From Christensenellaceae bacterium (lineage in GTDB: Bacteria; Bacillota; Clostridia; Christensenellales; Aristaeellaceae): a stretch of 36,640 nt of DNA. The notes beneath the pieces were generated by a model. That model ran no database searches, had not been told where the DNA came from, and worked only from the letters and a program-made list of their open reading frames with translations. The DNA is taken from positions 1 through 36,640 of the forward strand of contig JAAZPT010000191.1 of assembly GCA_012797085.1 (NCBI GenBank), read 5' to 3'. A program made the translations under genes and the position numbers. Positions 1,466 to 28,269 of this stretch are shown here, one piece after another (the stretch's first letter is position 1; each line of letters starts with the position of its first letter).

Positions 1466-2890
1466 ATGGTAAAGCTGTTTAAAAATTTGTTAAAAACATA
1501 TTCCATATTGTTATTTATAGCAATTGTTGCAGGTATATTTGTGTCGGCTTTTAAACTCAAGGCTAATATTGCTTTATATATTGCTGCAACCCTTTTTATT
1601 TTAATTATGCTTGGTATTTCAAAGCTTATAAAAAACAATATCAGCTTAATAATAGTAAGTCTTTTTGCTTTGCTTGTAATGCTTTATATTATTTTCACAA
1701 TAAAGAATGTACAAATATCGGATTTTGAGCTTTTTTATAATGCTGGCTTGGATATTAAATATGGCAGACGGGATTATTTAGCTTTTGACAAGTTCTTTTT
1801 TTGGCCCTTTCAAGTGGGTTATTCAAGTTATATAGCTTTGCTTTTAAACATTTGGGAAAACGAAATGATTATTAAATTATCCAATGTTTTTTGGGCTATG
1901 TTTGCAAGCTTCAGTATTTACGGACTAACTTTAGAAACAACTAAAAACTTTAAAATGGCCAATTTGGCTTTTGTAATACATTTGTTTTTTCCGGCACGTT
2001 TAGTAATGCTGCCGGTTATAACAAATCAGTTTTTGGCCAGTGCTTTAATATACTTTGCCTTATATCTTTGGTTAAAATTAGATACTAACAATTTTTTAAA
2101 TATATTGCTTATAGCCTTTATATTAGCCCTCGCAAATGCAGCAAGGAGCATAGCCATTGTTAGCTTAGGGGCAATATGCCTTTTCGGTTTATTGAATGCT
2201 ATCAAGCTTAAAAGCTACAATCAGGAAATTTCAAAAATCCTAAAACTATGCTTGTGTTATGTTATTATTTTTACTTGTATATCATCAAGTTTTGCATGGA
2301 CGGGTTTAAGTCCTAGGGGCTTAAAAAATGATGCCCTGCTTTGGAAGTTTGCCACAGGTACAAACTACGAATACAATGGAGCATATAACCCTGCTTTATA
2401 CCAAAAAATATATGGCGATGAAGGAATGACGGAAGAGGAAAGAGAGTACCTAACAAAACAAGCCATAAAGGATAACTTATCTCAAACTGATAAAATGCTT
2501 GTTTTGCCCTATAAAAAAATAGAGAGCCATTTTTTAGGTGTGCAACCAACGGAGTATACATTTAATAACATAAAAAACAATACAATAAACCTGTTCGGTA
2601 AAAATTATAATACTTCGCAATTAATTGCAAACTATGTTTTGTTTGAAAGAATATTTTTCTTTATAATTTTAATTTTTACAATGATAACTTTAGTTAGTTT
2701 TAATAAATGCATTACCGATAAAATGTGGATATTTATAATAGTTTTTGCAGAATATACATTTATACATTTAATAATTGAAATGCAATCAAGGTATATGTTT
2801 TTCCTGTTCGGTTTTATGGCAGTGTTTGCAGCTGTGTTTATTATAAATTTGGAGAGTACTTTAAAAACCAAATTAAAAAGGATGCAATAA
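1466..2890 (+). CDS. Polytopic membrane protein, possible GT-C glycosyltransferase
   Basis: The 474-residue protein is very hydrophobic, with roughly ten to twelve membrane helices along its whole length. After the first helices an extracytoplasmic loop carries an acidic pair (SDFELFYNAG, about residues 83-92), followed by WPFQVGYSSYIALLLN. Acidic residues in the first outer loop followed by a P-x-G-Y-like segment are typical of ArnT/PMT-type GT-C enzymes, which move sugars from polyprenyl carriers. That similarity is my reading from memory of the family. A charged loop of about 90 residues (roughly 280-370) separates the N-terminal helices from the last four. GGAGG precedes the ATG. The gene is monocistronic between two terminators. 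It could instead be an O-antigen-ligase-like or unclassified membrane protein. Confidence 0.6.
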   Translation: MVKLFKNLLKTYSILLFIAIVAGIFVSAFKLKANIALYIAATLFILIMLGISKLIKNNISLIIVSLFALLVMLYIIFTIKNVQISDFELFYNAGLDIKYGRRDYLAFDKFFFWPFQVGYSSYIALLLNIWENEMIIKLSNVFWAMFASFSIYGLTLETTKNFKMANLAFVIHLFFPARLVMLPVITNQFLASALIYFALYLWLKLDTNNFLNILLIAFILALANAARSIAIVSLGAICLFGLLNAIKLKSYNQEISKILKLCLCYVIIFTCISSSFAWTGLSPRGLKNDALLWKFATGTNYEYNGAYNPALYQKIYGDEGMTEEEREYLTKQAIKDNLSQTDKMLVLPYKKIESHFLGVQPTEYTFNNIKNNTINLFGKNYNTSQLIANYVLFERIFFFIILIFTMITLVSFNKCITDKMWIFIIVFAEYTFIHLIIEMQSRYMFFLFGFMAVFAAVFIINLESTLKTKLKRMQ

Positions 2891-2902
2891 GCATCCTTTT
2901 TT
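2875..2902. terminator. Bidirectional terminator between convergent genes
   Basis: The hairpin AAAAAGGATGC - AATAA - GCATCCTTTTTT has A and T tracts on both sides, so it can work on either strand. The TAA stop of the plus-strand gene lies in the loop, and the stop of the minus-strand paaK begins at the T tract. Confidence 0.85.
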
Positions 2903-4121
2903 AATATCTGTTGTCAAATATTCTTGTTGATTTCTTTTCGCTTCTTGGCAGTTCGCCTATACCAACAATTTTTACTATTACACTTATGCCGATTTTGTTT
3001 TTAAATCCTTGGTTAATTTCCCTTTCAAGGCTTGTAATATCTACATCTTTTTTAGCCTCAACAAATAGGGTACAAATATCCTTGCCATAAAGGTGATCAA
3101 GCATAAACTGGTACTCGCTGGAAGCGTCCGGTATCTGTGATATCATTTCGTCAATTTGGCTTGGGAATATATTTACACCCTTTACCTTAACCATATCATC
3201 AGTTCTGCCAAGTATTGTATCTATTAAGGGATAATTCAGGCCGCAACTACAAGGTTTTGCAATTTTTCTTGTTAAGTCGTGGGTTCTATAACGTATTAAG
3301 GGAGCCCCTTCCTTTGCAAGCGTAGTTATTACCAGCTCGCCTGTTTCGCCATCGGGCAGCACTTCACCGGTTTTAGGGTTAATTATTTCTATGTAAATAT
3401 AGTCGGTCCACATATGTATGCCCTCTTGTTTAGCACAACTTACACCAATACCCGGGCCATATACTTCAGTTAGGCCATAAATATCGTATAGCTCAACACC
3501 AAGCTCATTTGCTATACGTTTTCTCATTTTTTCGCCCCAACGTTCACTGCCTATAAGCCCTTTTGTTAGCTTAAGCTCATCGCGTATACCGCGTTTTTCA
3601 ATTTCTTCGGCTAATAATAATGCATAGGATGATGTGGCACAAAGCACCGTTGAGCCTAAGTCTTTCATCATTTTTAATTGCTTATCCGTGTTGCCCGGGC
3701 CCATAGGTATTGCCATGGCACCAAGCTTCTCCGCTCCGGCTTGAAAACCTATTCCTGCAGTCCATAAGCCGTAGCCGGGTGTTATATGTATCCTATCCTT
3801 GCTTGTTACACCTATAACTTCATAACAGCGGGCAAACATTTCAGCCCAGTCATCAACATCTTTTTGAGTATAGGGTATTATTACCGGTGTGCCTGTTGTG
3901 CCGGATGAAGAGTGTATTCTTACAATCTTATCCTCATCCACTGCTTGTAAGCCTAAGGGATAGGCATTCCTTAAATCCGCCTTTTCTGTAAAGGGTAATG
4001 CTAAAAAGTCTTCAAAGCTTTCAAGCTTTTCAACATCCTTAAACTTTTGAGAGTAAAAACCATTACCGGCTTTAAGCTTATAAAATTGTTCTTGAATTAT
4101 TTTAAATTGATTATCTTCCAT
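2901..4121 (-). CDS. paaK: Phenylacetate/arylacetate-CoA ligase (PaaK family)
   Basis: This ANL-superfamily ligase (about 406 residues; PaaK enzymes are about 430) activates an arylacetate to the CoA thioester through an acyl-adenylate. Visible motifs are the phosphate-binding loop SSSGTTGTP near residues 71-79, the adenylate motif YDIYGLTEVYGPG, the YRTHDL segment, a CSCG motif before LGRTDDMVKVKG, and the C-terminal lid domain with the PaaK pattern VKIVGIGELPRSEKKSTR. It is the last gene of the iorA-iorB-paaK operon, 17 nt after iorB. In this context indoleacetate and related aryl acids are the likely substrates (inference). The ATG at 4121 was chosen; a TTG at 4133 is also in frame, and neither has a good ribosome-binding site, so translation may be coupled to iorB. 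Confidence 0.88.
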   Translation of the reverse strand: MEDNQFKIIQEQFYKLKAGNGFYSQKFKDVEKLESFEDFLALPFTEKADLRNAYPLGLQAVDEDKIVRIHSSSGTTGTPVIIPYTQKDVDDWAEMFARCYEVIGVTSKDRIHITPGYGLWTAGIGFQAGAEKLGAMAIPMGPGNTDKQLKMMKDLGSTVLCATSSYALLLAEEIEKRGIRDELKLTKGLIGSERWGEKMRKRIANELGVELYDIYGLTEVYGPGIGVSCAKQEGIHMWTDYIYIEIINPKTGEVLPDGETGELVITTLAKEGAPLIRYRTHDLTRKIAKPCSCGLNYPLIDTILGRTDDMVKVKGVNIFPSQIDEMISQIPDASSEYQFMLDHLYGKDICTLFVEAKKDVDITSLEREINQGFKNKIGISVIVKIVGIGELPRSEKKSTRIFDNRY

Positions 4122-4138
4122 ATTATTGTCCAACTTTC

Positions 4139-4708
4139 TTAATTGTTTATAACCATATCAATGGCTTTAATATTTAAATCTACAAACTTTGGTTTTACGA
4201 TGTTTTTTACAGCATTTTTTAAGCTGTCAACACTATAATTTATTAATTTATATTTTATGGCATAGGCCACCAATGCAACATTTCTAATTTTGCTGTTATT
4301 AAGTTCCTTTGCAATTTTGTCCGTATTAACACTAATAATTTTAAAACCTTTGTTATCTAAATAATTAAAATAGTCCTTAAAAAGCATATCCTTTGTATTA
4401 TCAAGGCTGAAGGGTTTAATTATTTTTTCATTTATTAAAAACTTTGTATTTTCATTGCAATAGGGTAAGGTCCTTATGGCTTCTATCACTTCAAAGGCTA
4501 TTACTAAATCTGCTTTACCCTTTGGCATAAGAGGGCTGCATACACCTTTATTTATGCGTATATGGCTTACAACGCTTCCGCCTTTTTGTGCCATGCCTAT
4601 TGTTTCAGCGGTGTCAATGTCATCACCATTTAACATGGCCATTTGGGCAATAAGTTTACTTGCTAAAACTGTGCCTTGCCCACCAACGCCTACACATAGT
4701 ATATTCAT
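4139..4708 (-). CDS. iorB: Indolepyruvate:ferredoxin oxidoreductase, beta subunit
   Basis: The protein (about 189 residues) is the gamma-domain-type small subunit of the 2-oxoacid oxidoreductase family. It opens with ILCVGVGGQGTVLASKLI, the glycine-rich signature of this subunit, followed by the AETIGMAQKGGSVVSHIR segment conserved in IorB, and SPLMPKGKADLVIAFE. It forms an (alpha-beta)2 enzyme with IorA. The ATG at 4708 was chosen because GGAGG, inside the last codons of iorA, ends 8 nt upstream; a GTG one codon earlier (4711) is possible. The gene begins 3-6 nt after the iorA stop, so the two are translationally coupled. Confidence 0.93.
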   Translation of the reverse strand: MNILCVGVGGQGTVLASKLIAQMAMLNGDDIDTAETIGMAQKGGSVVSHIRINKGVCSPLMPKGKADLVIAFEVIEAIRTLPYCNENTKFLINEKIIKPFSLDNTKDMLFKDYFNYLDNKGFKIISVNTDKIAKELNNSKIRNVALVAYAIKYKLINYSVDSLKNAVKNIVKPKFVDLNIKAIDMVINN

Positions 4709-4711
4709 CAC

Positions 4712-6490
4712 TTACACCTCCCTTTGATTTATGGCTTTTACAGGGCAAAGACCCTTACACAAACCACAACCGTTACACATATCCTCATCAATTACAACTT
4801 TATCGTTTTTAAAAGCTATGGCAGGGCAACCTATTTCCCTTATACATTTGTTACATTTTATACACTTCTCGTTAATATAATAAGGAGCTTTTGCCTTACT
4901 TAGAAAAACACAGGGAGCTTTAAAAATTATTGCTTTAACCCCTTGTTTCGCAGAAATTTCCTTTACGGCTTCAATGGCTTTATCCTGCTCAAATGGGCTT
5001 AAAGTAATAACTTCATCCAAGCCTACAGCTTCTAAAACCTTAGGTATAGATATTGCTTTTGCTACATCACCGCTCAATGTAAAGGGTATTCCCGGGTGGG
5101 GTTGATTGCCTGTCATTGCTGTGGTTGAATTATCAAGCACTATTATTGTAATATTAGCCTTGTTATAAACTGCATTTACAATACCTGTTAATCCGGAAGC
5201 AAAAAATGTAGAGTCACCTATAAAGGAAAAACATATTGCACTCTCGTCAACTTTGTTTATACCTTGGGCAAGGGTAATATCTGCACCCATGCAAAGGCAG
5301 GTATCAACCATGTTTAATGGCATGGCATTACCCAATGTATAGCAACCTATATCCCCGTTAAATATGGCATTTTTACCCTTCATTGCCTGTTTTACGGCAT
5401 AGAAGCTTGCCCTATGGGGGCAACCGCTACATAGGCTTGGTGGACGAACCGGCAAGGGTATATCTATACTCAAACCGTTACTTGTTTCAGCTATATTAAG
5501 GAATTTTGCAATGTTTTCCGGAGTGTTTTCTCCGGCTAAGCTGTTTGTTTTGTCAAGCTTACCGTGTATTTTTACATTTAAATTATATTTGCCGGCAATT
5601 ATTAATAATTCTCGCTCAATATAAGGATCCAGCTCTTCAAAAATAAAAACCTCGCTTACATTGCTTAAAAATTCAATGGCCAACTTTTCAGGAAAGGGGT
5701 AAGGTGTGCCTATTTTTAATAAATTATAAGCGTTGCTGCCGTTGAGTGCTTCATTTACATAGGCATAACTTATACCGTTTGTGGCGATGCCGATTTTTTG
5801 ATTATTATTTATATGTTTATTAAAGGAACTTTTGCTAAACTCATCACTTAAGCTAAAGCGAAGTTCTTCCAAAGCGATATGGTTTAAGTAGGATGCTTTT
5901 GGGAATATCACCCAACGGGCAGTATCCTTAACAAAAGTACCTTTTTTGATTGTATTGTTATAATCAAATACATCAAAGCTTTTATAAGCATGGCAAACCC
6001 TTGTTGTAGGGCGCAATATTACGGGCCTTTTTATTTTTTCTGATAACTCAAAGGCAAATATTGTCATATGGTATGCTTCTTCAGGGCTTGAGGGATCAAG
6101 TACGGGAAGCTTGCTATAGGCTCCAAATGTGCGAGTATCCTGCTCTGTTTGTGAAGATATGGGGCCGGGGTCATCGGCAACAACTATGCACATGCCACCT
6201 TCTACTCCTACATAGGCAAGGCTCATCAGCGGATCACTTGCAACATTTAACCCAACCTGCTTCATTGTTACAATTGTTCTTGCACCGCAATAAGAGGCAC
6301 CGGCTGCAATTTCCAGGGCTGCCTTTTCGTTTGTACTCCACTCCACATACAAACCATTAGGTTTGTTATTAGCTATTGCCTCCATAATCTCGGTTGATGG
6401 AGTACCGGGATAACCGCTTGCCAAGGCTATGCCGGAATGTATGGCGGCTAAGGCTATGGCTTCGTTGCCAAGTAAAAATCTTTTTTCCAT
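4712..6490 (-). CDS. iorA: Indolepyruvate:ferredoxin oxidoreductase, alpha subunit
   Basis: The 592-residue catalytic subunit uses thiamine pyrophosphate to interconvert arylpyruvate and aryl-acetyl-CoA with ferredoxin. The domain order is: an N-terminal pyrimidine-binding domain (GNEAIALAAIHSG, YPGTPSTEI, then a WSTNEKAALEIAAGAS segment with the TPP-activating glutamate), a central swivel domain, a PP domain with GDIGCYTLG and GDSTFFASG...LDNSTTAMTG (Mg/TPP site), and a C-terminal 2[4Fe-4S] ferredoxin domain with CIKCNKC...GCP and CNGCGLCKGLCP. Length and order are as usual for IorA. It is the first gene after the T-box leader, with an AGGATG-type ribosome-binding site. Control by tRNA-Trp charging suggests a biosynthetic role (inference). 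Confidence 0.95.
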   Translation of the reverse strand: MEKRFLLGNEAIALAAIHSGIALASGYPGTPSTEIMEAIANNKPNGLYVEWSTNEKAALEIAAGASYCGARTIVTMKQVGLNVASDPLMSLAYVGVEGGMCIVVADDPGPISSQTEQDTRTFGAYSKLPVLDPSSPEEAYHMTIFAFELSEKIKRPVILRPTTRVCHAYKSFDVFDYNNTIKKGTFVKDTARWVIFPKASYLNHIALEELRFSLSDEFSKSSFNKHINNNQKIGIATNGISYAYVNEALNGSNAYNLLKIGTPYPFPEKLAIEFLSNVSEVFIFEELDPYIERELLIIAGKYNLNVKIHGKLDKTNSLAGENTPENIAKFLNIAETSNGLSIDIPLPVRPPSLCSGCPHRASFYAVKQAMKGKNAIFNGDIGCYTLGNAMPLNMVDTCLCMGADITLAQGINKVDESAICFSFIGDSTFFASGLTGIVNAVYNKANITIIVLDNSTTAMTGNQPHPGIPFTLSGDVAKAISIPKVLEAVGLDEVITLSPFEQDKAIEAVKEISAKQGVKAIIFKAPCVFLSKAKAPYYINEKCIKCNKCIREIGCPAIAFKNDKVVIDEDMCNGCGLCKGLCPVKAINQREV

Positions 6491-6512
6491 TAATTCACAT
6501 CCTTTTTAAAAT

Positions 6513-6552
6513 AAAAAAACACCCATCAACATAGGACAGTGTTGCTGCGGTG
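6513..6552 (-). terminator. Regulated terminator of the T-box leader
   Basis: On the minus strand CACC-G-CA-G-CAACA pairs with TGTTG-A-TG-GGTG (one bulge, one mismatch, loop CTGTCCTA) and is followed by seven T residues. Its 5' arm includes the CACCGC of the T-box sequence, so terminator and antiterminator are mutually exclusive. Confidence 0.88.
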
Positions 6553-6742
6553 CCACCTAAATTCATTATAAATAATGCTCTTTATCGTATACTACATATA
6601 CGTTTGCTGTATCGGGCAAACCCGTTCATTATAGAATACCTCATAGGCCCATTCAATGCTTTAAAGCCGCTTTCTTGCATCAACCGAAAGCTTTCTAAAG
6701 GTTTTTTAGCATTTACTATTTCTAATCATCGGCTATATTTAT
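6513..6742 (-). promoter_or_regulatory. T-box riboswitch leader, predicted tRNA-Trp specific
   Basis: Read on the minus strand, the leader contains the T-box sequence AGGTGGCACCGC (6558-6547). Upstream is a long Stem I with an AGTA element (6717-6714), the AATGCT/AGCATT pairing, a distal loop GGTTGATGCAAG (6685-6674), and a specifier loop in the context GAA-TGG-GCC. The specifier triplet TGG is at 6651-6649 and codes for Trp. Two small hairpins (CGGG-TTTG-CCCG and CGTATA-TGTAG-TATACG) sit between Stem I and the antiterminator. The base after UGG in the antiterminator bulge is C, which would pair with discriminator G73; tRNA-Trp has G73, while tRNA-Tyr and tRNA-Phe have A73. Uncharged tRNA-Trp should stabilise the antiterminator and turn on iorAB-paaK. 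Confidence 0.92.
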
Positions 6743-6777: not shown

Positions 6778-6790
6778 ACAAAAAAATAAA

Positions 6791-6820
6791 AAAAGCCTTG
6801 TTTTAAACAAGGCTTTTTTT
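6791..6820 (-). terminator. Terminator of ftsH
   Basis: The inverted repeat AAAAGCCTTG / CAAGGCTTTT, flanked by an A run and a T run, lies directly after the ftsH stop. The T tract in the minus-strand direction fits termination of ftsH. Confidence 0.85.
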
Positions 6821-16917: not shown

Positions 16918-17226
16918 ATGGCCAGTTCCAAAATTCGCATTAAATTAAAAGCGTATGAACACACTCTAATTGACCAAGCTGCAGAACGTATTGTAGAATC
17001 TGCAAAAAGAACTGGAGCTCGTGTTTCTGGGCCAATCCCACTTCCCACCGAGAAGGAAGTAGTAACAATTTTGCGCGCAGTTCATAAGTACAAAGATAGT
17101 CGTGAACAGTTCGAAAAGCGCACACACAAAAGGCTTATAGATATATTAAATCCAAGCCCTCGTACAGTTGACGCTATGATGAAGTTAGACCTTCCAGCAG
17201 GCGTTGAAATCGAAATTAAGCTTTAA
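16918..17226 (+). CDS. rpsJ: 30S ribosomal protein S10
   Basis: The 102-residue S10, first gene of the supercluster, has the family's usual length. It contains [15 protein letters not shown] at the N-terminus, the [17 protein letters not shown] loop that enters the 30S head, and the RTHKRLIDI and [12 protein letters not shown] segments. Besides 30S assembly, S10 (NusE) takes part in transcription antitermination. A strong AAGGAGG precedes the ATG at 6-7 nt. Confidence 0.98.
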
Positions 17227-17241
17227 TACGGAGGTGTTAAA

Positions 17242-17886
17242 ATGAAAAAAGCTATTTTGGGTACAAAATTGGGTATGACCCAAATATTTACCGAAAACGG
17301 ACACCTCGTACCTGTAACGGTTGTTGAGGCTGGTCCTTGTACAGTAGTGCAAGTTAAGACCATCGAAAAGGATGGCTATGAAGCGGTTCAAATAGGGTAT
17401 AAAGAATATCCGGAAAACCGTGCAAAAAAATTGGTAACAAAGCCACTTCAAGGTAAGTTTGCTAAAGCAGGTGTTGCTCCTACCCGTTTCTTGAGAGAGT
17501 TCAAACTTGAAAACTCAGCTGATTATAAAGTTGGCGATGTTATAAAGGCAGATACTTTCCAAGCTGATGATATTGTTGATGTAACAGGCATATCAAAAGG
17601 TCATGGATTTTCAGGAGTTATAAAACGTTGGAATTATAGCAGAGGGCCAATGTCTCACGGTTCCAAATACCGCCGTGGTGGAGGTTCATTAGGTTCAGGA
17701 TCAACCCCTTCACGTGTTTTCAAAAACAAACCTATGGCAGGTCACTATGGTGTAGACAAAGTAACAATTCAAAACTTAACAGTTGTTAAAGTTGATGCAG
17801 AGCGTAACCTAATATTGGTTAAGGGTTCTTTGCCAGGTGCTAATGGTTCTTTAGTTCAAATCAAAAGCGCCGTTAAAGCACAGTAA
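17242..17886 (+). CDS. rplC: 50S ribosomal protein L3
   Basis: The 214-residue L3 has the start [15 protein letters not shown] and the central extension [21 protein letters not shown]-like segment that reaches toward the peptidyl-transferase centre, then [21 protein letters not shown]3 is one of the two proteins that initiate 50S assembly. It begins 15 nt after rpsJ with GGAGGTG as ribosome-binding site. Confidence 0.98.
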
Positions 17887-17914
17887 AAGTAAATTCTAAA
17901 AGGAGGAAGAAACC

Positions 17915-18538
17915 ATGCCAAAAACTGCGCTGTATAATATGGAAGGCAAAACAGTTGGCGAAATCGAACTTAGCGATGATATTTTTGCAAGCAAAATAAG
18001 CAAATCCGCTATGCATATCGTTGTTCGCTCAATACTTGCTAATAAACGCCGTGGCACACAAAGCGCAAAAACACGTAGTGAAGTACGTGGCGGCGGTCGC
18101 AAAATATATCGTCAAAAGGGCACAGGTAATGCTCGTCATCATGGCAATCGCGCACCTCAATTTGCACACGGTGGTGTAGTGTTCGCGCCAAAGCCTCGTG
18201 ATTATGTTGTTAAGGTTAACAAAAAAGTTCGTCGTTTAGCATTTAAGAGCGCTTTAACAAGCAAACTCAATAATGGCGAAATTATAATCTTGGACGAGTT
18301 AAAACTTGCAGCACCAAAAACAAAACTTATGGCTGAAGTTCTTAAAAACTTAAATGCCGATAAAAGAACATTGCTTGTAACATCAAGTGAAGATACAGAT
18401 GTTCGTCGTGCAGGCCAAAATATTGAAAAGTTGGAATATAACTTTGTTAATACAATTAATACATACGATGTATTAAAAGCAAATAAAGTTATCATAACAA
18501 AAGATGCTGTTAAACAAATCGAGGAGGTGTATGCATAA
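17915..18538 (+). CDS. rplD: 50S ribosomal protein L4
   Basis: The 207-residue L4 has the basic tunnel loop AKTRSEVRGGGRKIYRQKGTGNARHH followed by RAPQFAHGGVVFAPKPRDY (about residues 48-95), which lines the exit tunnel and is the usual site of macrolide-resistance changes. L4 is the common feedback regulator of S10 operons, which bears on the structured leader upstream. Its TAA overlaps the rplW ATG by one base. Confidence 0.98.
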   Translation: MPKTALYNMEGKTVGEIELSDDIFASKISKSAMHIVVRSILANKRRGTQSAKTRSEVRGGGRKIYRQKGTGNARHHGNRAPQFAHGGVVFAPKPRDYVVKVNKKVRRLAFKSALTSKLNNGEIIILDELKLAAPKTKLMAEVLKNLNADKRTLLVTSSEDTDVRRAGQNIEKLEYNFVNTINTYDVLKANKVIITKDAVKQIEEVYA

Positions 18539-18843
18539 TGAAATTTTCACATGATATTATCATACGCCCGGTATTAACCGAGAAAGCCTATGATGGCATA
18601 GCCGATAAAAGATATGTTTTTGAAGTTGCTAAAACTGCTACAAAAACAGAAATTAAAAACGCATTGCAACAAATTTTTCCCAATATTAAAATTGAAAAAG
18701 TTAATACATTGCGTACAATAGGCAAAATTAAGCGCCAGGGTAAATACTCCGGTCGCAGGCCAGAAGTTAAAAAAGCTTATGTTCAACTTTCCAAGGATTC
18801 AAAAGGAATAGAATTCTTTGAAGGTATGGCAGAAGAAGAATAA
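18538..18843 (+). CDS. rplW: 50S ribosomal protein L23
   Basis: The 101-residue L23 opens with DIIIRPVLTEKAYD and has YVFEVAKTATKTEIKNALQQ and the RRPEVKKAYVQL tail. L23 sits at the tunnel exit and docks trigger factor, SRP and SecY. It overlaps rplD by one base (TAATG), with the ribosome-binding site GGAGGTG inside rplD. Confidence 0.97.
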   Translation: MKFSHDIIIRPVLTEKAYDGIADKRYVFEVAKTATKTEIKNALQQIFPNIKIEKVNTLRTIGKIKRQGKYSGRRPEVKKAYVQLSKDSKGIEFFEGMAEEE

Positions 18844-18864
18844 TAGCAGGGAGGAAAAGCAATC

Positions 18865-19704
18865 ATGGCGATTCGTCAATATAAGCCAACCTCGCCCGGC
18901 CGTCGTTTCATGTCGGTGCTCACATATGATGAAATTACAACAAATAAACCGGAAAAATCATTGCTTGAGCCGTTAAAGAAACATGCAGGCCGCAATAAGC
19001 AAGGTAAAATAACAGTTCGTCACCGTGGCGGTGGCAATAAAGTTAAATATCGTATTATAGACTTTAAACGCGATAAAAAAGAAATTCCAGCTCGTGTAGC
19101 TTCAATAGAGTATGATCCTAACCGTTCTGCATTTATTGCATTGCTAAACTACCTTGATGGTGAAAAACGCTACATCCTTTGCCCCTTAGGCCTAAAGGTT
19201 GGAGATGAAATTATCTCGAGTGAAGCGGATCACGTTGATATTAAGCCCGGCAACGCGTTACCTCTTAAAAATATTCCAACAGGTACTTTAATTCATAACA
19301 TTGAATTAAAAGTTGGTAGAGGCGGGCAATTAGTTCGTTCCGCAGGCAACAGTGCTCAGCTTTTAGCTAAAGAAGGTTCAAAGGCTCAAGTACGTTTACC
19401 CAGTGGTGAAGTTCGTTTAATTCCACTTAATGCAATGGCAACAATCGGCTCAGTAAGCAATCCGGATCATAGCAATGTAAGGATTGGTAAAGCAGGCCGT
19501 ATACGTCATTTAGGGTTCCGCCCGGCAGTTCGTGGTGTTGTAATGAACCCGGTAGATCACCCTCATGGTGGTGGTGAAGGTAAATCACCCGTTGGTATGC
19601 CGGCACCTCTTACTCCTTGGGGTAAGGTTGCACTCGGCCTTAAAACACGTAAGCGCAAAAAATATAGTAATAAAGATATTATCAGACGTGCAGGTAAACG
19701 TTAA
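18865..19704 (+). CDS. rplB: 50S ribosomal protein L2
   Basis: The 279-residue L2 has the N-terminal [16 protein letters not shown], the RNA-binding core with [18 protein letters not shown], and the highly conserved C-terminal [16 protein letters not shown], whose histidine lies near the peptidyl-transferase centre. Length is normal. Confidence 0.99.
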
Positions 19705-19730
19705 GCGAGTAAGGAAGGAGGCAAGCATAA

Positions 19731-20012
19731 ATGAGTCGTTCTGTAAAGAAAGGACCTTATGTCCAAGCAGCATTGTTAAAGCGTGTTGAAGAAATGACAG
19801 AAAAAGGTCAAAAAAGTCCTATCAAAACATGGTCACGCGCTTCTACAATTTTCCCAACATTTGTTGGTCACACTATAGCCGTTCATGATGGCCGTAAACA
19901 TGTACCGGTATATATTACTGAAGATATGGTAGGTCACAAATTAGGTGAATTTGCCCCCACTCGTCTGTTCCGTGGACATGCAGGGGATAAAAAGACCGGT
20001 GGCAAAAAATAG
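19731..20012 (+). CDS. rpsS: 30S ribosomal protein S19
   Basis: The 93-residue S19 has the signature start [23 protein letters not shown], the [16 protein letters not shown] strand, and [17 protein letters not shown]. It binds 16S rRNA in the 30S head together with S13. Confidence 0.98.
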
Positions 20013-20025
20013 GAGGAAATAAATA

Positions 20026-20415
20026 ATGGCAACTAATACACGTAAAAAAGGCGAAAAACGTCTCGCCAATAGAGACAGACGCCCAAAGGCCCATGTCACA
20101 AACGTGCGTATCTCCTCCAGAAAAGTTAGGATAGTAATAAACCTAATACGTGGCAAAAAGGTAGATGAAGCACGTGCAATTCTTAAGTTTACACCCAAGG
20201 CTGCAAGCCCGATAGTGTTAAAACTACTTGATAGCGCAATTGCAAATGCAGTTAATAATAACGAATTAAATCGTCAAAATTTGTATATAGCTGAAATATA
20301 TGCAAATGAAGGTCCAACACTTAAAAGATTTATTGCACGCTCTCGCGGCAGTGCATCACCAATCTTAAAGCGTACAAGCCACATTTCTGTAGTACTTGAC
20401 GAGAAAGTAGACTAG
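20026..20415 (+). CDS. rplV: 50S ribosomal protein L22
   Basis: The 129-residue L22 has [21 protein letters not shown] and, near the C-terminus, the beta-hairpin region [18 protein letters not shown] that reaches into the exit tunnel. The N-terminus has a basic run ([17 protein letters not shown]) of about 20 residues before the core, making it slightly longer than the usual 110-115 residues. Confidence 0.97.
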
Positions 20416-20427
20416 GGAGGTTATCTA

Positions 20428-21096
20428 ATGGGTCAGAAAGTAAATCCGCACGGTGCTCGTGTAGGCATAATATTGCCATGGAGTACCCGCTGGTATGCTA
20501 ATAAAAAAGATTTTGCGAAGAACCTCGCCGAGGATTACAAAATTCGTGAATTCTTAAAAGAAAAATGCTTTAATGCTGGCATTAGTCATATAGATATTGA
20601 ACGTACAGCAAGCAGAATTACAGTTTTTCTACACGCTGCCAAACCCGGTTTAATTGCACGCAGCGGTGAAGAAATTGTTAAATTAAACGGTCTTGTAGCT
20701 GAAAAAATCGGCTCACCCGTTCAAATAAACATTATTGAAATTAAAAAGCCCGAAACAAATGCACAACTTGTTGCAGAAAGCATTGCACAACAGCTTGAAA
20801 AACGTATAAGCTTCCGTCGTGCTATGAAACAAGCTATACAACGCTCCATGCGTGCAGGCGTTAAAGGTATAAAAGTTAGTTTATCCGGCCGTGTTGGTGG
20901 TGCTGATATAGCTCGTACGGAGCACTACCATGAAGGTTCAATACCACTACAAACACTAAGGGCAAACATCAATTACGGTTTTGCTGAAGCTGAAACAACA
21001 TATGGTCGTTTAGGCGTAAAGGTTTGGATCTACAAAGGTCAAAAACTTCCAGCTGCAAGGCGTAATCCTGAAAAGAAAGAACAAGGAGGGAAATAA
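20428..21096 (+). CDS. rpsC: 30S ribosomal protein S3
   Basis: The 222-residue S3 has [13 protein letters not shown] at the start, a KH domain (about 40-110), and the C-terminal domain with [20 protein letters not shown] and [28 protein letters not shown]. The KH and C-terminal domains form part of the mRNA entry channel and its helicase. Confidence 0.98.
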
Positions 21097-21099
21097 GCC

Positions 21100-21651
21100 A
21101 TGTTAATGCCAAAAAGAGTAAAACGTCGTCGCCAATTTCGCGGACGTATGAAAGGTAAGGCAAGCCGCGGTAATTTCCTAGCCTATGGAGATTTTGGTTT
21201 GCAGGCACAGGCACCCGCATGGGTTACCAGCCAACAAATCGAGGCTGCGCGTATTGCGTTAACACGTTATATCAGGCGTGGTGGCCAAGTATGGATAAAG
21301 ATATTCCCCGACAAACCGGTTACAGAAAAACCTGCTGAAACTCGTATGGGTTCCGGTAAAGGTTCACCGGAGTACTGGGTAGCAGTAGTTAAGCCCGGCA
21401 GAGTATTATTTGAAATTAAGGGTGTTACAGAGGCAGTTGCTCGTGAAGCATTGCGTCTTGCATCACACAAATTACCCTTAAAATGTAAAATAATAAAGCG
21501 CGAAGGTTTAACGGATGCAGATATTGCTGCAGCAGCACAAAGGGCTGCTAAAAATAGGGCTGCTATTATAGATGCTGAAGAAGCAGCAGAAGTAGCAGAC
21601 GAAACCGCTGAAGTTGCGGAAAATAACGAAGAATCGGGTGGTGAAGCATAA
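21100..21651 (+). CDS. rplP: 50S ribosomal protein L16 with an acidic C-terminal extension
   Basis: The first 135 residues are a normal L16 ([67 protein letters not shown]). L16 shapes the A-site tRNA and antibiotic-binding region. Most L16 proteins end near residue 140. This one continues to 183 with an Ala/Glu-rich, probably helical and then disordered tail ([18 protein letters not shown]). The reading frame is open with no frameshift, and the TAA overlaps the rpmC ATG by one base, so the tail is real coding sequence. Confidence 0.97.
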
Positions 21652-21842
21652 TGAAGGCTAAAGAATTTGCTGCAATGAACCCCGCCGAAATTCAGGAAAA
21701 GGTCAAGGAGCTTAAGAGCGAACTGTTCAACCTTCGTTTCCAGCTTGCGACCGGTCAGTTGCAAAACACAATGGTTATTACTAACGTAAAACGCGATATA
21801 GCACGTGCTAAAACGGTTTTACGCCAAAAACAAACAAAATAA
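21651..21842 (+). CDS. rpmC: 50S ribosomal protein L29
   Basis: The 63-residue L29 is a two-helix protein at the tunnel exit. It has [38 protein letters not shown], and the basic [12 protein letters not shown]. It overlaps rplP by one base. Confidence 0.97.
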
Positions 21843-21892
21843 GCAGCACAAAGCAAGCTAAAGGAAATAAATAAAAGGAGGCAACAGCTTCA

Positions 21893-22153
21893 ATGACTGA
21901 AACAAGAGGCATTCGTAAGTCCAGAGTAGGCATGGTAGTAAGCGACAAAATGGATAAAACCGTGGTTGTTGAAATTAAAACTCGTGTAAGCCATCCCTTA
22001 TATGGAAAAATTATGAATAGAACAACAAAATTCAAAGCTCATGATGAACTAAATCAATGTGGTATTGGCGATAAGGTTCGTATTATGGAAACCCGCCCAA
22101 TAAGCCGTGACAAAAACTGGCGCATTGTTGAGATTCTTGAAAAGGCAAAATAA
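21893..22153 (+). CDS. rpsQ: 30S ribosomal protein S17
   Basis: The 86-residue S17 has [33 protein letters not shown] and the C-terminal [20 protein letters not shown], characteristic of this OB-fold protein. A 50-nt gap separates it from rpmC and a 95-nt gap follows, where the S10 and spc halves join. Confidence 0.97.
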
Positions 22154-22200
22154 TAAAACTAAGCTTAATTGCTTCGTTTTGTCAATGTTAATCCAAGGAT

Positions 22201-22224
22201 CGATGCTGTACATATAGGGCATCG
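22201..22224 (+). other. Hairpin in the rpsQ-rplN gap
   Basis: CGATGC (22201-22206) pairs with GCATCG (22219-22224) around a 12-nt loop. There is no T tract, so it is not a terminator. It lies in the largest gap inside the supercluster (95 nt) and could be an RNA processing or regulatory element, but nothing more can be shown. Confidence 0.4.
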
Positions 22225-22248
22225 AACCCGAAAAAGGAGGAGAAACTT

Positions 22249-22620
22249 ATGATTCAGCCGCAAACACGGCTTAAAGTTGCCGATAATTCCGGTGCTAAAG
22301 AAATCATGTGCATACGTGTTTTAGGTGGTTCTTTCCGCCGTCACGGTTCAATTGGCGATATTATAGTAGCCAGTGTTAAAAGCGCACAGCCCGGTGGCAC
22401 TGTTAAAAAAGGTGATGTTGTAAAAGCTGTTATCGTACGTCAATGCAAAAGCATACGTAGGGTAGATGGCAGCTATATCAAATTTGATGATAATGCTGCA
22501 GTGCTTATAGACAACGCCAAAATGCCTCGCGGTACCCGTATATTCGGGCCGGTGGCACGTGAACTTCGTTCAGATAAAGATTTTATGAAAATAGTATCCC
22601 TTGCTCCAGAAGTATTATAA
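22249..22620 (+). CDS. rplN: 50S ribosomal protein L14
   Basis: The 123-residue L14 has [28 protein letters not shown], the [15 protein letters not shown] segment, and [20 protein letters not shown] at the end. It is the first spc gene, at the subunit interface. Length is normal. Confidence 0.98.
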
Positions 22621-22635
22621 TGCGGAGGTATGATA

Positions 22636-22995
22636 ATGAGCTCTAAAATACATGTAAAAACGGGTGATCGTGTAGTTGTCATAACCGGTAGTGAAAACAT
22701 CCGCGGAAAAATGGGCAAAGTACTAAGCGTTAACCCTAAAAACCATCGCCTTATAGTTGAAGGCGTAGCTATGGTTACAAAACATCAAAAGCCTCGTCAT
22801 CAAGGCGAGCCCGGTGGAACATTCCAAAAGGAACGCTCCATAGATTCATCAAATGTTATGTTGGTTTGCCCCAAATGCAATAAACCCACCAAAATCGGTC
22901 GCCGTGAGGTAGAGGTTGAAAACCAAGATGGCAAAAAAATAAAAAAACGCGTTCGTGTTTGTAAAAACAAGGAATGTGGCAAAGAAATTGACTAA
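22636..22995 (+). CDS. rplX: 50S ribosomal protein L24, four-cysteine form
   Basis: The 119-residue L24 has an N-terminal KOW domain ([25 protein letters not shown]) and the conserved IDSSNVMLV. Unlike the B. subtilis form it carries four cysteines, C78-x2-C81 and C109-x4-C114, in a pattern that could bind zinc. The ATG at 22636 was chosen because GGAGG ends 7 nt upstream; the in-frame ATG at 22630 is only 1 nt from that site. Confidence 0.96.
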
Positions 22996-23009
22996 AGGAG
23001 GGAACTTAA

Positions 23010-23552
23010 ATGGCAACAAGAATTAGTGAATTATATAAAGCCGAAGTAGTTCCTGCCTTAATGCAGAAATTCGGCTATAAAAACATCATGCAAGTACCTA
23101 AACTTCATAAAATTGTTTTAAACATGGGCTTGGGCGATTGTAAAGACAACAGCAAAGCATTAAACAACGCTGTTGAAGAACTTGCTTTAATATCAAGCCA
23201 AGCACCTGTAGTAACAAAGGCTCGTAAAAGCGTTGCTAACTTTAAGCTTCGTCAAGGTATGAGCGTTGGTGCAAAGGTTACACTTCGTGGCAAACGTATG
23301 GAAGAATTCTATGACAAATTGGTAAATGTAGCTCTTCCTCGTGTTCGTGACTTCCGTGGCGTAAGCACAAAGGCCTTTGACGGCCGTGGCAACTACGCAT
23401 TAGGTATTCGTGAACAACTACTATTCCCCGAAATTAACTACGATAAAGTAGAAACTATTCGCGGTATGGAAATCATCTTTGTTACAAGTGCACAAACAGA
23501 TGAAGAATGTAGAGAATTGCTTGCCCTATTAGGCATGCCTTTCGCAAGGTAA
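23010..23552 (+). CDS. rplE: 50S ribosomal protein L5
   Basis: The 180-residue L5 has [61 protein letters not shown], and [20 protein letters not shown]. It binds 5S rRNA in the central protuberance. Length is normal. Confidence 0.98.
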
Positions 23553-23562
23553 GGAGAGAATT

Positions 23563-23748
23563 ATGGCTAAAAAAAGTTTAATAGTTAAGGCATCCCGTCC
23601 TGCTAAGTTCTCTACAAGAGCTTACACACGTTGCAACATTTGTGGTCGCCCCCATTCAGTGTTGCGCAAGTACGGAATTTGCCGTATCTGTTTCAGAGAA
23701 CTGGCCTATAAAGGTCAAATACCCGGTGTCCGCAAGGCCAGTTGGTAA
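23563..23748 (+). CDS. rpsN: 30S ribosomal protein S14, zinc-binding type
   Basis: The 61-residue S14 type Z has two CxxC pairs (C24, C27, C40, C43) that hold zinc, and ends in GVRKASW as usual. The short zinc form is typical of Firmicutes and is the primary S14. Confidence 0.98.
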
Positions 23749-23777
23749 GCGGCATTTAATGCAAAGGAGGTCAAAGC

Positions 23778-24179
23778 ATGATTGTTAACGATCCCATCGC
23801 AGATATGCTTACACGTATTCGTAATGCACAAATAGCAAAGCATGATGCTGTGGTTGTACCTGCCAGCAATACAAAAAAGGCTATCGCCAAAATTTTGCTG
23901 GATGAAGGTTACGTCAAAAATGTTGAATTTATAAATGATGGTCCTCAAGGTTCAATAAAAATAACATTGAAATATGTTGACGGCAAAAATCAGCCGGTAA
24001 TAGGAGGACTAAGGCGTATTAGCAAACCCGGTTTGCGTATATATGCACAAAGCAGTGAACTGCCCCAAGTACTTGGTGGCTTAGGTATAGCTATTATAAG
24101 TACATCCAAGGGCGTTATGACAAGCCGTCAAGCTCGTAAAGAGAATGTGGGCGGCGAAGTATTAGCTTATATTTGGTAA
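23778..24179 (+). CDS. rpsH: 30S ribosomal protein S8
   Basis: The 133-residue S8 has [18 protein letters not shown] at the N-terminus and the C-terminal rRNA-binding segment [27 protein letters not shown]8 binds helix 21 of 16S rRNA and in enteric bacteria represses the spc operon; such control is not visible here. Confidence 0.98.
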
Positions 24180-24210
24180 TAAACCTGACACGTCAAAGGA
24201 GGAGTGAATT

Positions 24211-24750
24211 ATGTCACGTATCGGTAAACTTCCGATTACAATTCCCGCGGGCGTGACGGTTACGGTGGATGATAAAAACATCGTAAAAGTGAAAGGACCT
24301 AAAGGTGAGCTTTCTCAGGCTGTCAACCGCGATATAAAACTTGATCAAAAGGATGGCGTTTTAACATTAACTCGTCCATCAGATGCAAAGCCACATAAAG
24401 CTATGCACGGTTTATACCGTAGCCTAGTTAATAATATGGTAATAGGTGTTAGTGAAGGTTATAGCAAAACACTAATTTTAGTTGGTACAGGTTATCGTGC
24501 CGAAGCAAAAGGTACAACCTTAACAATAAACCTTGGTTTCTCTCACCCTGTAGTTTTTGAGGCTCCAAAGGATATTACATTTACAACACCTGATCCTGCA
24601 AAAATTATTATAAGTGGTATTTCAAAACAACAAGTTGGCAACTTAGCAGCGGATATTCGTGCTCTACGTAAACCCGAACCATATCTTGGTAAAGGCGTTA
24701 AGTATGAAAATGAACACATTCGCCGTAAAGTTGGTAAAACAGGCAAATAA
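24211..24750 (+). CDS. rplF: 50S ribosomal protein L6
   Basis: The 179-residue L6 has SRIGKLPITIPAGV, VKGPKGEL, the mid-region GYRAEAKGTTLTINLGFSHPV, and the C-terminal signature PEPYLGKGVKYENEHIRRKVGKT. It is made of two similar alpha/beta domains and sits near the factor-binding site. Confidence 0.98.
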   Translation: MSRIGKLPITIPAGVTVTVDDKNIVKVKGPKGELSQAVNRDIKLDQKDGVLTLTRPSDAKPHKAMHGLYRSLVNNMVIGVSEGYSKTLILVGTGYRAEAKGTTLTINLGFSHPVVFEAPKDITFTTPDPAKIIISGISKQQVGNLAADIRALRKPEPYLGKGVKYENEHIRRKVGKTGK

Positions 24751-24768
24751 AGTAAGGAGTGAACGCAA

Positions 24769-25137
24769 ATGTTTTCAAGACGTGATAGAAATGCAGATCG
24801 TATCATTCGTCATGCACGAGTACGTAAAAAAGTTAGCGGCACACCTGAAATGCCAAGACTTTGCGTATACCGTAGCTTGAACCATATTTATGCTCAAGTT
24901 ATAGATGATACAAAGGGTTGCACATTGGTAAGTGCATCAACCATGGAAAAAGAAATTAAAAGCCAAATAGCAGAAGTTTCAAAAACGGAAGCTGCTAAAA
25001 TTGTAGGTAAAATTATAGGCGAGCGTGCAGCTGAAGCCGGTATCGAAAAAGTTGTTTTCGACCGTGGCGGTTATGTATACACAGGTCGTGTACAAGCTGT
25101 TGCCGATGGTGCTCGTGAGGCCGGTCTTAAATTTTAA
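24769..25137 (+). CDS. rplR: 50S ribosomal protein L18
   Basis: The 122-residue L18, a 5S rRNA-binding protein, has [31 protein letters not shown] and the end [26 protein letters not shown]. Length is normal. Confidence 0.97.
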
Positions 25138-25155
25138 TAAAGGAGGAACACGTAC

Positions 25156-25668
25156 ATGCAAAGAGGTAATCGCATGAATCGCAGAGAACCAAGCGAGTTT
25201 AAAGAAAAGCTGGTTTCACTCAACCGTGTTACCAAGGTTGTTAAGGGCGGCCGTAATATGCGCTTTGCCGCATTGGTTGTTGTTGGCGATGAAAAGGGCC
25301 GTGTAGGCGCCGGTATCGGTAAATCAACAGAAATATCCGATGCTATCCGTAAAGGTGCAGCAATAGCCAAGAAAAACCTTATTACAGTTCCAATGGCTAA
25401 CACAACAATACCCCATGAAGTAATTGGTAGATTTAGTACAGCTAAAGTTGTTTTACTACCTGCTGAAGAGGGTGCCGGTGTTATAGCCGGTGGCGCTGCG
25501 CGTGCAGTATTGGAGCTTAGTGGTATTAAGGATATTAGAACAAAGTCCTTTGGTACAAGCAACAGGATAAACATGGTAAAGGCAACCTTGGAAGGTTTAA
25601 AAAATCTTCGTTCTCCGGAAATGGTTGCACAACTTCGCGGAAAGACCGTAGAAGAAATATTGGGCTAG
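25156..25668 (+). CDS. rpsE: 30S ribosomal protein S5
   Basis: The 170-residue S5 has a double-stranded RNA-binding-like domain ([31 protein letters not shown]) and the glycine-rich [13 protein letters not shown], then [26 protein letters not shown]. It contributes to decoding fidelity. GGAGG lies 9 nt before the ATG. Confidence 0.98.
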
Positions 25669-25678
25669 GAGGATAAAA

Positions 25679-25861
25679 ATGAAATTAAGAATTACATTAA
25701 TAAAATCCCCAATAGCTTGTAAGCAAAAACAAATTAAAACCGTTAAGGCATTAGGGCTAAGAAAAGTGGGCTACTCAGTAGAACAACCCGATAACCCATG
25801 CATTCGCGGTATGATCTTCCGTGTTAAACACATGGTAGAAGTAGCAGAGATTGAAGAATAG
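25679..25861 (+). CDS. rpmD: 50S ribosomal protein L30
   Basis: The 60-residue L30 has LRITLIKSPIACKQKQIKTVKALGL and the VEQPDNPCIRGMIFRVKHMVEV pattern. Size is typical for bacterial L30. Confidence 0.97.
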   Translation: MKLRITLIKSPIACKQKQIKTVKALGLRKVGYSVEQPDNPCIRGMIFRVKHMVEVAEIEE

Positions 25862-25876
25862 GAGGGAGTACAAATT

Positions 25877-26317
25877 ATGAGATTACATGATTTGAAACCC
25901 GCCGAGGGTTCAAGAACTGCACCTAAGCGCCTTGGTAGAGGCTCAGGCAGCGGTCTTGGTAAAACCTCAGGTAAGGGCCACAAGGGTGCAAAGGCTCGTA
26001 GTGGCGGCGGTAAAGGTCCTGGATTTGAAGGCGGACAAATGCCATTAATCCGTCGTGTTCCTAAGAGTGGTTTTACTAATATATTTAAAAAAGTTTACGC
26101 AATAGTTAACGTAGGTAGCTTGGAAATCTTTGAAAACGGCACAGTTGTGGATGTTGATGCACTAAAAGAAGCCGGTCTTATTAAAAAGACATACGACGGT
26201 ATTAAAATACTGGCAAAAGGCGATTTAACACGCAAACTCACTGTAAAGGCAGATAAATTCTCAGCTGCTGCAAAGGAAAAGATTGAGGCATCCGGCGGGA
26301 AAGCCGAGGTGAATTAA
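25877..26317 (+). CDS. rplO: 50S ribosomal protein L15
   Basis: The 146-residue L15 has [12 protein letters not shown], the glycine-rich basic [34 protein letters not shown], and a helical C-terminal domain. The end overlaps the ribosome-binding region for secY, which starts 2 nt downstream. Confidence 0.97.
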
Positions 26318-26319
26318 TT

Positions 26320-27582
26320 ATGTTTGAAACCATACGTAATGCATTTAAAGTTAAAGAAATAAGGCAAAAATTAATTTACACATTCTTTATGTTGTTAATT
26401 TACCGCCTTGTAAGCGTTATACCTGCACCCGGTGTAAACATTGCGGCTGTTAAAGCCAGCACTGGTTCAGGCCTGGATATGCTTGATATGATTAATATGA
26501 TGACAGGTAATGCCTTCCAACAGATGACAATTATGGCTATGGGTATTACTCCGTATATTAACTCAAGCATTATAATGCAACTTTTAACAATTGCAATACC
26601 TGCCCTTGAACGTCTTCAAAAAGAGGGCGAAGAAGGCAGGAAGAAAATTGCAAGAATTACACGCTATGTAACTATCGGCTTAGCTTTATTCCAGGCTATC
26701 GGTTTGGTATCAAGCCTCGGTTATATTAAACCCGGTTGGTTTAACAGCGTTTTAGTCGGTGTAAGCATGTCAGCCGGTACAGCCTTATGTATGTGGATGG
26801 GTGAAAGAATTACCGAAAAAGGCATTGGTAACGGTATATCCTTACTGATATTTGCAGGTATTATTTCAAACTTGTTCAACGGAACATTAAATCTAATCCG
26901 TACAGCAATTTCCAGAGGCTTATTAAGCGATTGGATTTCTGTATTTGCAGTTTTAATACTACTTGTTGTTATGATAGTATTAGTTACATTTGTTAACTTA
27001 GGCGAGCGCCGTATACCCGTTAACTATGCAAAAAGGGTTAGGGGTCGCAAAATGTATGGCGGCCAAAGCACTTATATGCCTATGAAGGTTGACGCAAGTG
27101 GCGTTCTACCTATGATATTTGCTTATTCCTTTATGGCATTCCCCAGCACAATTATTCAACTTACAGCACCTAATAGCGGTTTTGCACTTTGGTGGAATAC
27201 GTATATGAACCAAGGTTCTCCTGCTTATTTGTTAATTACAGCCTTATTAATATTCGGCTTTACATTCTTCTATTCATCCATTTCATATGATCCCGTAGAA
27301 ATTTCAAAAAATCTACAGGAAAATGGTGGCATGATACCCGGAATTCGCTCAGGTAAAGCAACAGTAAACTTTATTAACCGTGTTAAAAACCGTTTAACAA
27401 TGTTTAACGCTTTCTTCCTTGCAGTTGTAGCTACAATACCGACTGTGGCAACAATACAATTGCGAACAGCAATTCCCTTTGCAGCATCATCAATTTTAAT
27501 TGGTGTTAGCGTTGCTTTAGAAACAATGCGTCAGCTTGAAGGCCAACTTACAACCCGTAACTACGAAGGCTTTCTTAGATAG
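26320..27582 (+). CDS. secY: Preprotein translocase subunit SecY
   Basis: The 420-residue SecY is the channel for Sec-dependent export and membrane insertion. About ten membrane helices are visible. Family signatures include LLIYRLVSVIPAPGV in the first helix, MGITPYINSSIIMQLL, GIGNGISLLIFAGI, ERRIPVNYAKR with the basic cytosolic loop, and the C-terminal QLEGQLTTRNYEGFLR. Its ATG lies 2 nt after the rplO stop, so translation is coupled. Confidence 0.98.
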   Translation: MFETIRNAFKVKEIRQKLIYTFFMLLIYRLVSVIPAPGVNIAAVKASTGSGLDMLDMINMMTGNAFQQMTIMAMGITPYINSSIIMQLLTIAIPALERLQKEGEEGRKKIARITRYVTIGLALFQAIGLVSSLGYIKPGWFNSVLVGVSMSAGTALCMWMGERITEKGIGNGISLLIFAGIISNLFNGTLNLIRTAISRGLLSDWISVFAVLILLVVMIVLVTFVNLGERRIPVNYAKRVRGRKMYGGQSTYMPMKVDASGVLPMIFAYSFMAFPSTIIQLTAPNSGFALWWNTYMNQGSPAYLLITALLIFGFTFFYSSISYDPVEISKNLQENGGMIPGIRSGKATVNFINRVKNRLTMFNAFFLAVVATIPTVATIQLRTAIPFAASSILIGVSVALETMRQLEGQLTTRNYEGFLR

Positions 27583-27588
27583 TGCTAT

Positions 27589-27619
27589 ACCGGCGGGAAC
27601 TTTATGTTCCGCCGGTTTT
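27589..27619 (+). other. GC-rich hairpin between secY and adk
   Basis: ACCGGCGGGAAC (27589-27600) pairs with GTTCCGCCGGT (27606-27616), with loop TTTAT and only a TTT tail. It could weaken transcription or protect a processed end after secY, but it is not a full terminator because the T tract is short. Confidence 0.55.
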
Positions 27620-27645
27620 GGAACAAATTATTAGGAGGTAATTGT

Positions 27646-28269
27646 ATGAATGTAATCTTTTTAGGACCTCCGGGCGCAGGTAAAGGCACCCATGCTCAAA
27701 AAATTAGCCAAGAGTTTAGCATTCCTCAAATTTCCACAGGCGACATACTTCGTCAAGCCATAAAAGATGGCACGGAGGTCGGTTTAAAAGCCAAGGAATA
27801 TATGGATGCAGGTAAGCTTGTTCCTGACAGTGTAGTTATTGCTATTGCAGAGCAGCGTTTAAAGGCTGATGATTGCAAAAAAGGCTATATACTAGACGGG
27901 TTTCCACGCACAGTAGCTCAAGCTGAAGCCCTTGACAAAATAGCTGATATTGACTTTGTTGTTGATATAGATGTTGATGATGAAGTTATTGTTAAACGTT
28001 TAAGTGGCAGAAGGGTTTGCCCTGACTGCCAAACAGTTTATCATGTAGACTTTGAAGGATATTCACCGATTTGTGCTAAATGCGGTGGCAATGTAATTCA
28101 ACGTAAAGATGATAACGAAGATACTATCCGTGAACGCCTAAGCGTATACGCACAGCAAACAGCTCCCCTTATTGACTATTATAAAAAGGCTGGTAAACTT
28201 ATAGTAGTAGATGGTGCAAAACCGGTTAGCGAAGTTTTTGCTGATGTAAAAAAGGCTTTTGAGGCATAA
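27646..28269 (+). CDS. adk: Adenylate kinase, zinc-lid type
   Basis: The 207-residue enzyme interconverts ATP+AMP and 2 ADP. The P-loop GPPGAGKGT is at residues 7-15, STGDILR at 30-36, and DGFPRT near 84-89. The LID carries C125, C128, C143 and C146, the structural zinc site of many Gram-positive adenylate kinases. The ATG at 27646 was chosen because AGGAGGT lies 7 nt upstream; a longer in-frame reading from 27604 would run through the hairpin and lacks such a site. map starts 1 nt downstream. Confidence 0.98.
   Translation: MNVIFLGPPGAGKGTHAQKISQEFSIPQISTGDILRQAIKDGTEVGLKAKEYMDAGKLVPDSVVIAIAEQRLKADDCKKGYILDGFPRTVAQAEALDKIADIDFVVDIDVDDEVIVKRLSGRRVCPDCQTVYHVDFEGYSPICAKCGGNVIQRKDDNEDTIRERLSVYAQQTAPLIDYYKKAGKLIVVDGAKPVSEVFADVKKAFEA

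Follow-up and report, generated by a model that had tools for sequence, protein, structure and literature searches.

The iorA-iorB-paaK operon and its T-box leader

We analyzed a window of 36,640 nucleotides, contig JAAZPT010000191.1 (C32) of a Christensenellaceae metagenome bin, and examined an operon of three minus-strand genes, iorA, iorB and paaK, together with the T-box leader that precedes it. The bin comprises 2.06 Mb in 441 contigs and is 80.2% complete and 2.5% contaminated. An earlier reading of the letters alone (the original prediction) had placed a reductive tryptophan (Trp) salvage pathway at 2901-6490. This span covers the three genes and leaves out the T-box. The features of the locus are as follows.

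6529-6738, minus strand: T-box leader, predicted to sense tRNA-Trp (Rfam RF00230, full length)
6649-6651, minus strand: specifier codon UGG (Trp) in the loop GAA-UGG-G (Rfam alignment and sequence)
6546-6558, minus strand: T-box core AGGUGGCACCGCA, with the tRNA acceptor-end bulge UGGC (Rfam alignment and sequence)
6507-6554, minus strand: terminator hairpin with its U run; it and the antiterminator cannot form together (fold and sequence)
4712-6490, minus strand: iorA, indolepyruvate:ferredoxin oxidoreductase (IOR) alpha subunit, 592 amino acids (TIGR03336 above cut-off; motifs)
4139-4711, minus strand: iorB, IOR beta subunit (PF01558, POR domain; NCBIfam IOR-beta models)
2901-4133, minus strand, start probably the ATG at 4121: paaK, PaaK-type AMP-forming arylacetate-coenzyme A (CoA) ligase (TIGR02155, 389 bits; solved relatives)
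2875-2901, minus strand: intrinsic terminator closing the operon (terminator scan)
6788-6820, both strands: bidirectional terminator between the operon and ftsH (terminator scan)

The leader matched RF00230 with 113.4 bits (cut-off 93, E 1.5e-24). Stem I with its specifier loop, the antiterminator and a competing terminator, which define the T-box class, are all present. From the UGG specifier, the leader is predicted to respond to uncharged tRNA-Trp. The leader terminator was overlooked by a simple terminator scan and was recovered by direct folding. The hairpin itself spans 6518-6554 (-12.9 kcal/mol) with the U run after it, and its 5' arm is the T-box core. Therefore, only one of antiterminator and terminator can form at a time, as in transcription attenuation. 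The hairpin energy alone was not unusual compared with shuffles (z -0.9), and the weight rests on the overlap with the antiterminator and on the U run.

IorA scored 727 bits against the NCBIfam IOR_alpha model TIGR03336 (cut-off 651) and retains the thiamine pyrophosphate site and two 4Fe-4S motifs. The top models for IorB are all IOR beta models, yet its scores lie under their cut-offs. With the alpha subunit over its cut-off, the cofactor sites and the adjoining beta gene, the pair belongs to the IorAB family. PaaK matched part of PF00501 and PF14535, and has both a PaaK-family domain and an AMP-binding motif. It retains the SSSGTTGTP motif and the C-terminal lysine region, and its closest solved chains (4r1l, 2y27 and 2y4o) are phenylacetate-CoA ligases. 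Its score of 389 bits against the phenylacetate-CoA ligase equivalog TIGR02155 is under the cut-off of 646. We therefore assigned it to the PaaK family and not to a substrate.

Trp T-boxes on operons of the same type in Clostridia

Operons of the same type, here called type A, were gathered from named genomes (L loci) and from relatives (G genomes). To label T-boxes at iorA, the flanks were searched with motifs and nhmmer; several flanks were short upstream, so that a label of no T-box may be wrong there. The specifier was UGG in all 13 T-boxes controlling a type-A operon and never Tyr (tyrosine) or Phe (phenylalanine); the 12 outside the window have the same specifier position and codon. The link of this operon type to Trp sensing is conserved.

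The T-box lies directly before iorA in ten cases: the window, L051, L064 (Sporobacter termitidis bin), L066 (Caproiciproducens galactitolivorans YR-4), L067 (Clostridium thermopalmarium DSM 5974), L072, L093, L112 (Desulfosporosinus acididurans), G007 and G057. The carrier families include Oscillospiraceae, Acutalibacteraceae, Clostridiaceae and Desulfitobacteriaceae. On the IorA tree, this arrangement takes 8 changes, at least 5 of them forced by well-supported branches, indicating that the T-box was gained or lost repeatedly and not copied once. In L081 and G020, the T-box lies between iorB and paaK, where it would drive paaK alone. In L068 (Clostridium sp. MCC353), a Trp T-box precedes an energy-coupling factor (ECF) transporter with a TrpP-type S component (PF17099), and the run continues into iorA-iorB-paaK. 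A nearby trpP-ECF gene set is driven by a Trp T-box in L060, and in L086 paaK-iorA-iorB adjoins a trp operon under a Trp T-box.

No T-box was detected at many other type-A operons. We did not adopt the rule that such operons are catabolic; many of them belong to genomes that have trpC, and other regulation may act on them.

Three further observations concern the distribution of type A. Contig L069, titled Methanomassiliicoccus (an archaeon), has iorA-iorB-paaK with an IorA that nests among clostridial ones, reflecting either cross-domain transfer or a mis-binned contig. In Monoglobus pectinilyticus (L226) and Selenomonas ruminantium TAM6421 (pSRC1, L227), iorA-iorB-paaK is carried by large replicons that are annotated as plasmids. 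In a rumen Ruminococcus bin, a sodium:solute symporter (SSF) gene directly precedes a type-A iorA (L059:1470-2996); it is like that of the Tyr/Phe module described below and is a candidate arylacetate importer.

The Trp synthesis pathway in the host and its relatives

The original prediction had expected a missing or incomplete trp pathway in the host. Indole-3-glycerol-phosphate synthase (IGPS, trpC), trpB, chorismate synthase (aroC), prephenate dehydratase (pheA) and prephenate dehydrogenase (tyrA) were searched for, and none was found in the bin, which is about 80% complete. The host, a gut-type anaerobe, seems to lack the usual Trp pathway through loss. The absence of trpC is firmer than the others because IGPS was found in only 2 of 35 other members of the same family (absent in 33/35) and in 9 of 60 genomes of the whole group.

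We compared the presence of trpC with that of the T-box in 50 genomes reached through the named loci. Among genomes with a T-box on ior/paaK, 5 of 9 had no trpC, against 5 of 41 among the others (Fisher p 0.010, kinship not corrected). A trpB over the cut-off was missing in 10/10 of the genomes without trpC, which include the named isolates C. thermopalmarium DSM 5974, C. galactitolivorans YR-4 and Clostridium sp. MCC353. trpC was present in the four remaining T-box carriers (4/9), which suggests that the route can also supplement the normal pathway.

A different arrangement was seen in relative G004, which has no trpC. Here, a Trp (UGG) T-box (L132, C46:4152-4383) lies directly before a stand-alone trpB (C46:4555-5697). 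Relative G046 has a T-box at the same place before trpB, with its specifier not read. The arrangement in G004 looks like indole salvage, and the group may hold two alternative modes of Trp salvage.

Other T-boxes of the host genome

The host genome has seven T-boxes. Another Trp T-box had been predicted, and a second Trp-specific one was indeed found, preceding the gene of a TrpX-type transporter subunit (trpX). A Tyr-specific T-box (GAA-UAC-A) precedes a class I/II aminotransferase gene on contig C361 (L121:7-1224). The remaining four precede genes that read as ileS, serS, pheS and thrS, assigned by eye without a family search.

No aminotransferase gene lies within the iorA-iorB-paaK operon, as originally stated; the C361 gene, under its Tyr T-box, offers a candidate elsewhere in the genome. 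The solved proteins that match it best include an aminotransferase II homologue, a 'multiple substrate aminotransferase' and an aminoadipate aminotransferase, and it shares 43% identity with the aminotransferase in the IOR operon of relative G003. It is a candidate for the transamination step and not a demonstrated partner.

A sister system with Tyr and Phe T-boxes

Relatives contain another IOR group, which shares about 40% identity, forms a separate clade in the IorA tree and is associated with Tyr or Phe T-boxes. The specifier is UAC (Tyr) in G001, G003, G016, G017, G020 and G023, and UUC (Phe) in G032. These T-boxes (L166, L182, L185, L194 and L221-L223) precede an AMP-forming acyl-CoA ligase (PF00501 and PF13193). 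The gene run from the ligase reaches iorA in G001, G003, G023 and G032, and it includes an SSF symporter in G023 and G032. In G020, a symporter comes after the ligase. In the single case of G003, iorB and an aminotransferase gene follow iorA. This is the layout one would predict for cells that take up arylacetates and then activate, carboxylate and aminate them whenever the corresponding amino acid runs short.

The ligase of the Tyr/Phe module also occurs in the host genome (C251:25484-27094; L220:5449-7098), about 69% identical and without a T-box. It adjoins genes resembling fumarate hydratase subunits.

Proposed route and alternative explanations

A T-box turns genes on when its cognate tRNA is uncharged. 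Trp breakdown at the moment when uncharged tRNA-Trp switches the operon on would therefore make no sense. This starvation control, together with the AMP-forming ligase, argues for the reductive, biosynthetic direction. Of the enzymes for such a route, the host genome encodes PaaK and IorAB, with the C361 gene as a candidate aminotransferase. In the proposed mechanism, the tRNA-Trp T-box would attenuate transcription of iorA-iorB-paaK, and the CCA end of uncharged tRNA-Trp would stabilize the antiterminator so that the operon is read. PaaK would convert imported indoleacetate to indoleacetyl-CoA, with ATP going to AMP, and IorAB would form indolepyruvate from indoleacetyl-CoA, CO2 and reduced ferredoxin. 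An aminotransferase encoded elsewhere, possibly that of C361, would then yield Trp. Indoleacetate would come as a waste product of neighbouring organisms. PaaK and IorAB may also take phenylacetate and 4-hydroxyphenylacetate.

We give a probability of roughly three in four to the reading that this operon, under its Trp T-box, rebuilds Trp from indoleacetate in the reductive direction. The original prediction of reductive Trp salvage is supported by the trp gene search, the second Trp T-box and the 13 of 13 UGG specifiers, while we infer the substrate and the direction from regulation and gene context.

Several points weigh against this reading. Uptake through trpX could meet the need for Trp. 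The T-box on C361 is for Tyr and not Trp, and the contig ends right after the aminotransferase gene. The absences in the bin are weak alone; it is about 80% complete, aroC, pheA and tyrA may share one cluster, and trpB and trpC may share another. A pattern search of the bin recovered no tRNA-Trp gene. Most genomes whose type-A operons have no detected T-box possess trpC. Moreover, IOR is reversible and broad, acting on phenyl-, hydroxyphenyl- and indolepyruvate. An IOR of Bacteroides thetaiotaomicron has been linked to phenylalanine breakdown, as cited in PMC13285125.

This breadth also permits a general salvage of arylacetates, in which Phe and Tyr, or else all three aromatic amino acids, would be the main products and the Trp T-box would serve just as a convenient sensor. 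IORs act on all three arylpyruvates (PMC13285125), and aroC, pheA and tyrA were likewise not found in the host genome. However, relatives keep a separate IOR group with its own AMP-forming ligase under Tyr and Phe T-boxes, and the type-A T-boxes are all for Trp, with two driving paaK alone and one joining trpP. We regard general salvage as unlikely. The operon might instead degrade Trp to indoleacetyl-CoA and indoleacetate, as amino acid fermenters do, which is the customary reading of IOR in fermenters and accords with the indoleacetate production driven by 2-oxoacid:ferredoxin oxidoreductases in gut acetogens (PMC13290082). Induction by Trp starvation would then destroy a scarce amino acid. 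In addition, oxidative clusters pair the oxidoreductase with a phosphotransacylase and a kinase or with ADP-forming ligases and gain ATP (PMC13285125), whereas the ligase here is AMP-forming and the operon's neighbours in the window include no phosphotransacylase, acyl kinase or ADP-forming ligase, unlike in an oxidative Stickland IOR cluster. For a Bacteroides IOR adjoining a ligase of the AMP-forming kind, a biosynthetic role was considered probable, as such ligases favour acyl-CoA formation (PMC13285125). Oxidative use is thus very improbable. The regulation would be uninformative if the T-box were decayed and non-functional or misread in another specifier frame, as the unremarkable energy of the terminator fold might hint. 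The full-length 113-bit match and the identical specifier position and codon in 12 further type-A T-boxes make this hardly credible.

Considering both IOR groups, we lean slightly toward a broader picture built on salvage from arylacetates. Clostridia would run tRNA-controlled reverse aromatic pathways, with a Trp T-box module for indoleacetate and a Tyr/Phe T-box module for hydroxyphenylacetate or phenylacetate that has a ligase, a symporter, an IOR and an aminotransferase of its own. Lineages that lost the trp genes would then live on arylacetates released by their neighbours, and indoleacetate in the gut would be a currency that is consumed as well as an end product.

Relation to known systems

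The original prediction described the aryl-acid route as known in methanogenic archaea. A proposal that IOR runs in reverse in a methanogen is cited in PMC13285125, but the route is not confined to these organisms. The title of Allison, Robinson and Baetz 1974 (reference list of PMC11014993) concerns Trp made from indoleacetate by rumen bacteria, that of a 1965 paper (listed in PMC7356843) concerns Phe made from phenylacetate, and a biosynthetic role of IOR with an AMP-forming ligase was suggested for Bacteroides by Jiang et al. 2026 (PMC13285125).

The inferred sequence of acyl activation, ferredoxin-dependent carboxylation and transamination is like that of the methanogen (IOR of Methanobacterium thermoautotrophicum) and of the rumen route, the latter as far as the 1974 title tells. 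Here, in contrast, the genes are clostridial and form a single operon under a tRNA-Trp T-box. The Bacteroides case similarly has an IOR adjoining an AMP-forming arylacetate-CoA ligase, but no T-box is mentioned there (PMC13285125), whereas Trp-specific sensing gives the direction here. Known Trp T-box regulons (trp operon, trpX/trpXYZ and TrpP) share the RNA class and the specifier, and the host genome likewise has a trpX T-box; IOR and PaaK targets are not mentioned in the main texts of two surveys (PMC2494555, PMC3766115). The oxidative Stickland cluster HpdDEFG-HpdJ-HpdK of Clostridium scatologenes also has a 2-oxoacid:ferredoxin oxidoreductase acting on arylpyruvates, but its phosphotransacylase and kinase gain ATP, whereas the AMP-forming ligase here spends it.

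We found nothing relevant on an IOR linked with a T-box in the searchable literature, which includes the main texts of these two surveys, and priority is not certain. The chemistry is not new; control by a T-box and the assignment of genes in Clostridia seem to be new within that literature. Ordinary enzymes and an ordinary RNA class are combined so that IOR gets an unexpected role and direction in Clostridia. For the 1974 rumen report, this supplies candidate genes, named isolates and an RNA switch from which the physiological direction can be read. If the proposed route is true, iorA in gut genomes, which usually counts as a sign that Trp is degraded and indoleacetate produced, should be read differently. 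Prediction of auxotrophy would also be helped, since for genomes classed as Trp auxotrophs indoleacetate alone may be sufficient.

Genomic context of the operon

The neighbours of the operon in the window are ftsH and a solute-binding protein gene. At 16918-28269, the window contains genes for S10, L3, L24, SecY and adenylate kinase. These form the common large ribosomal protein operon and indicate that the contig is chromosomal.

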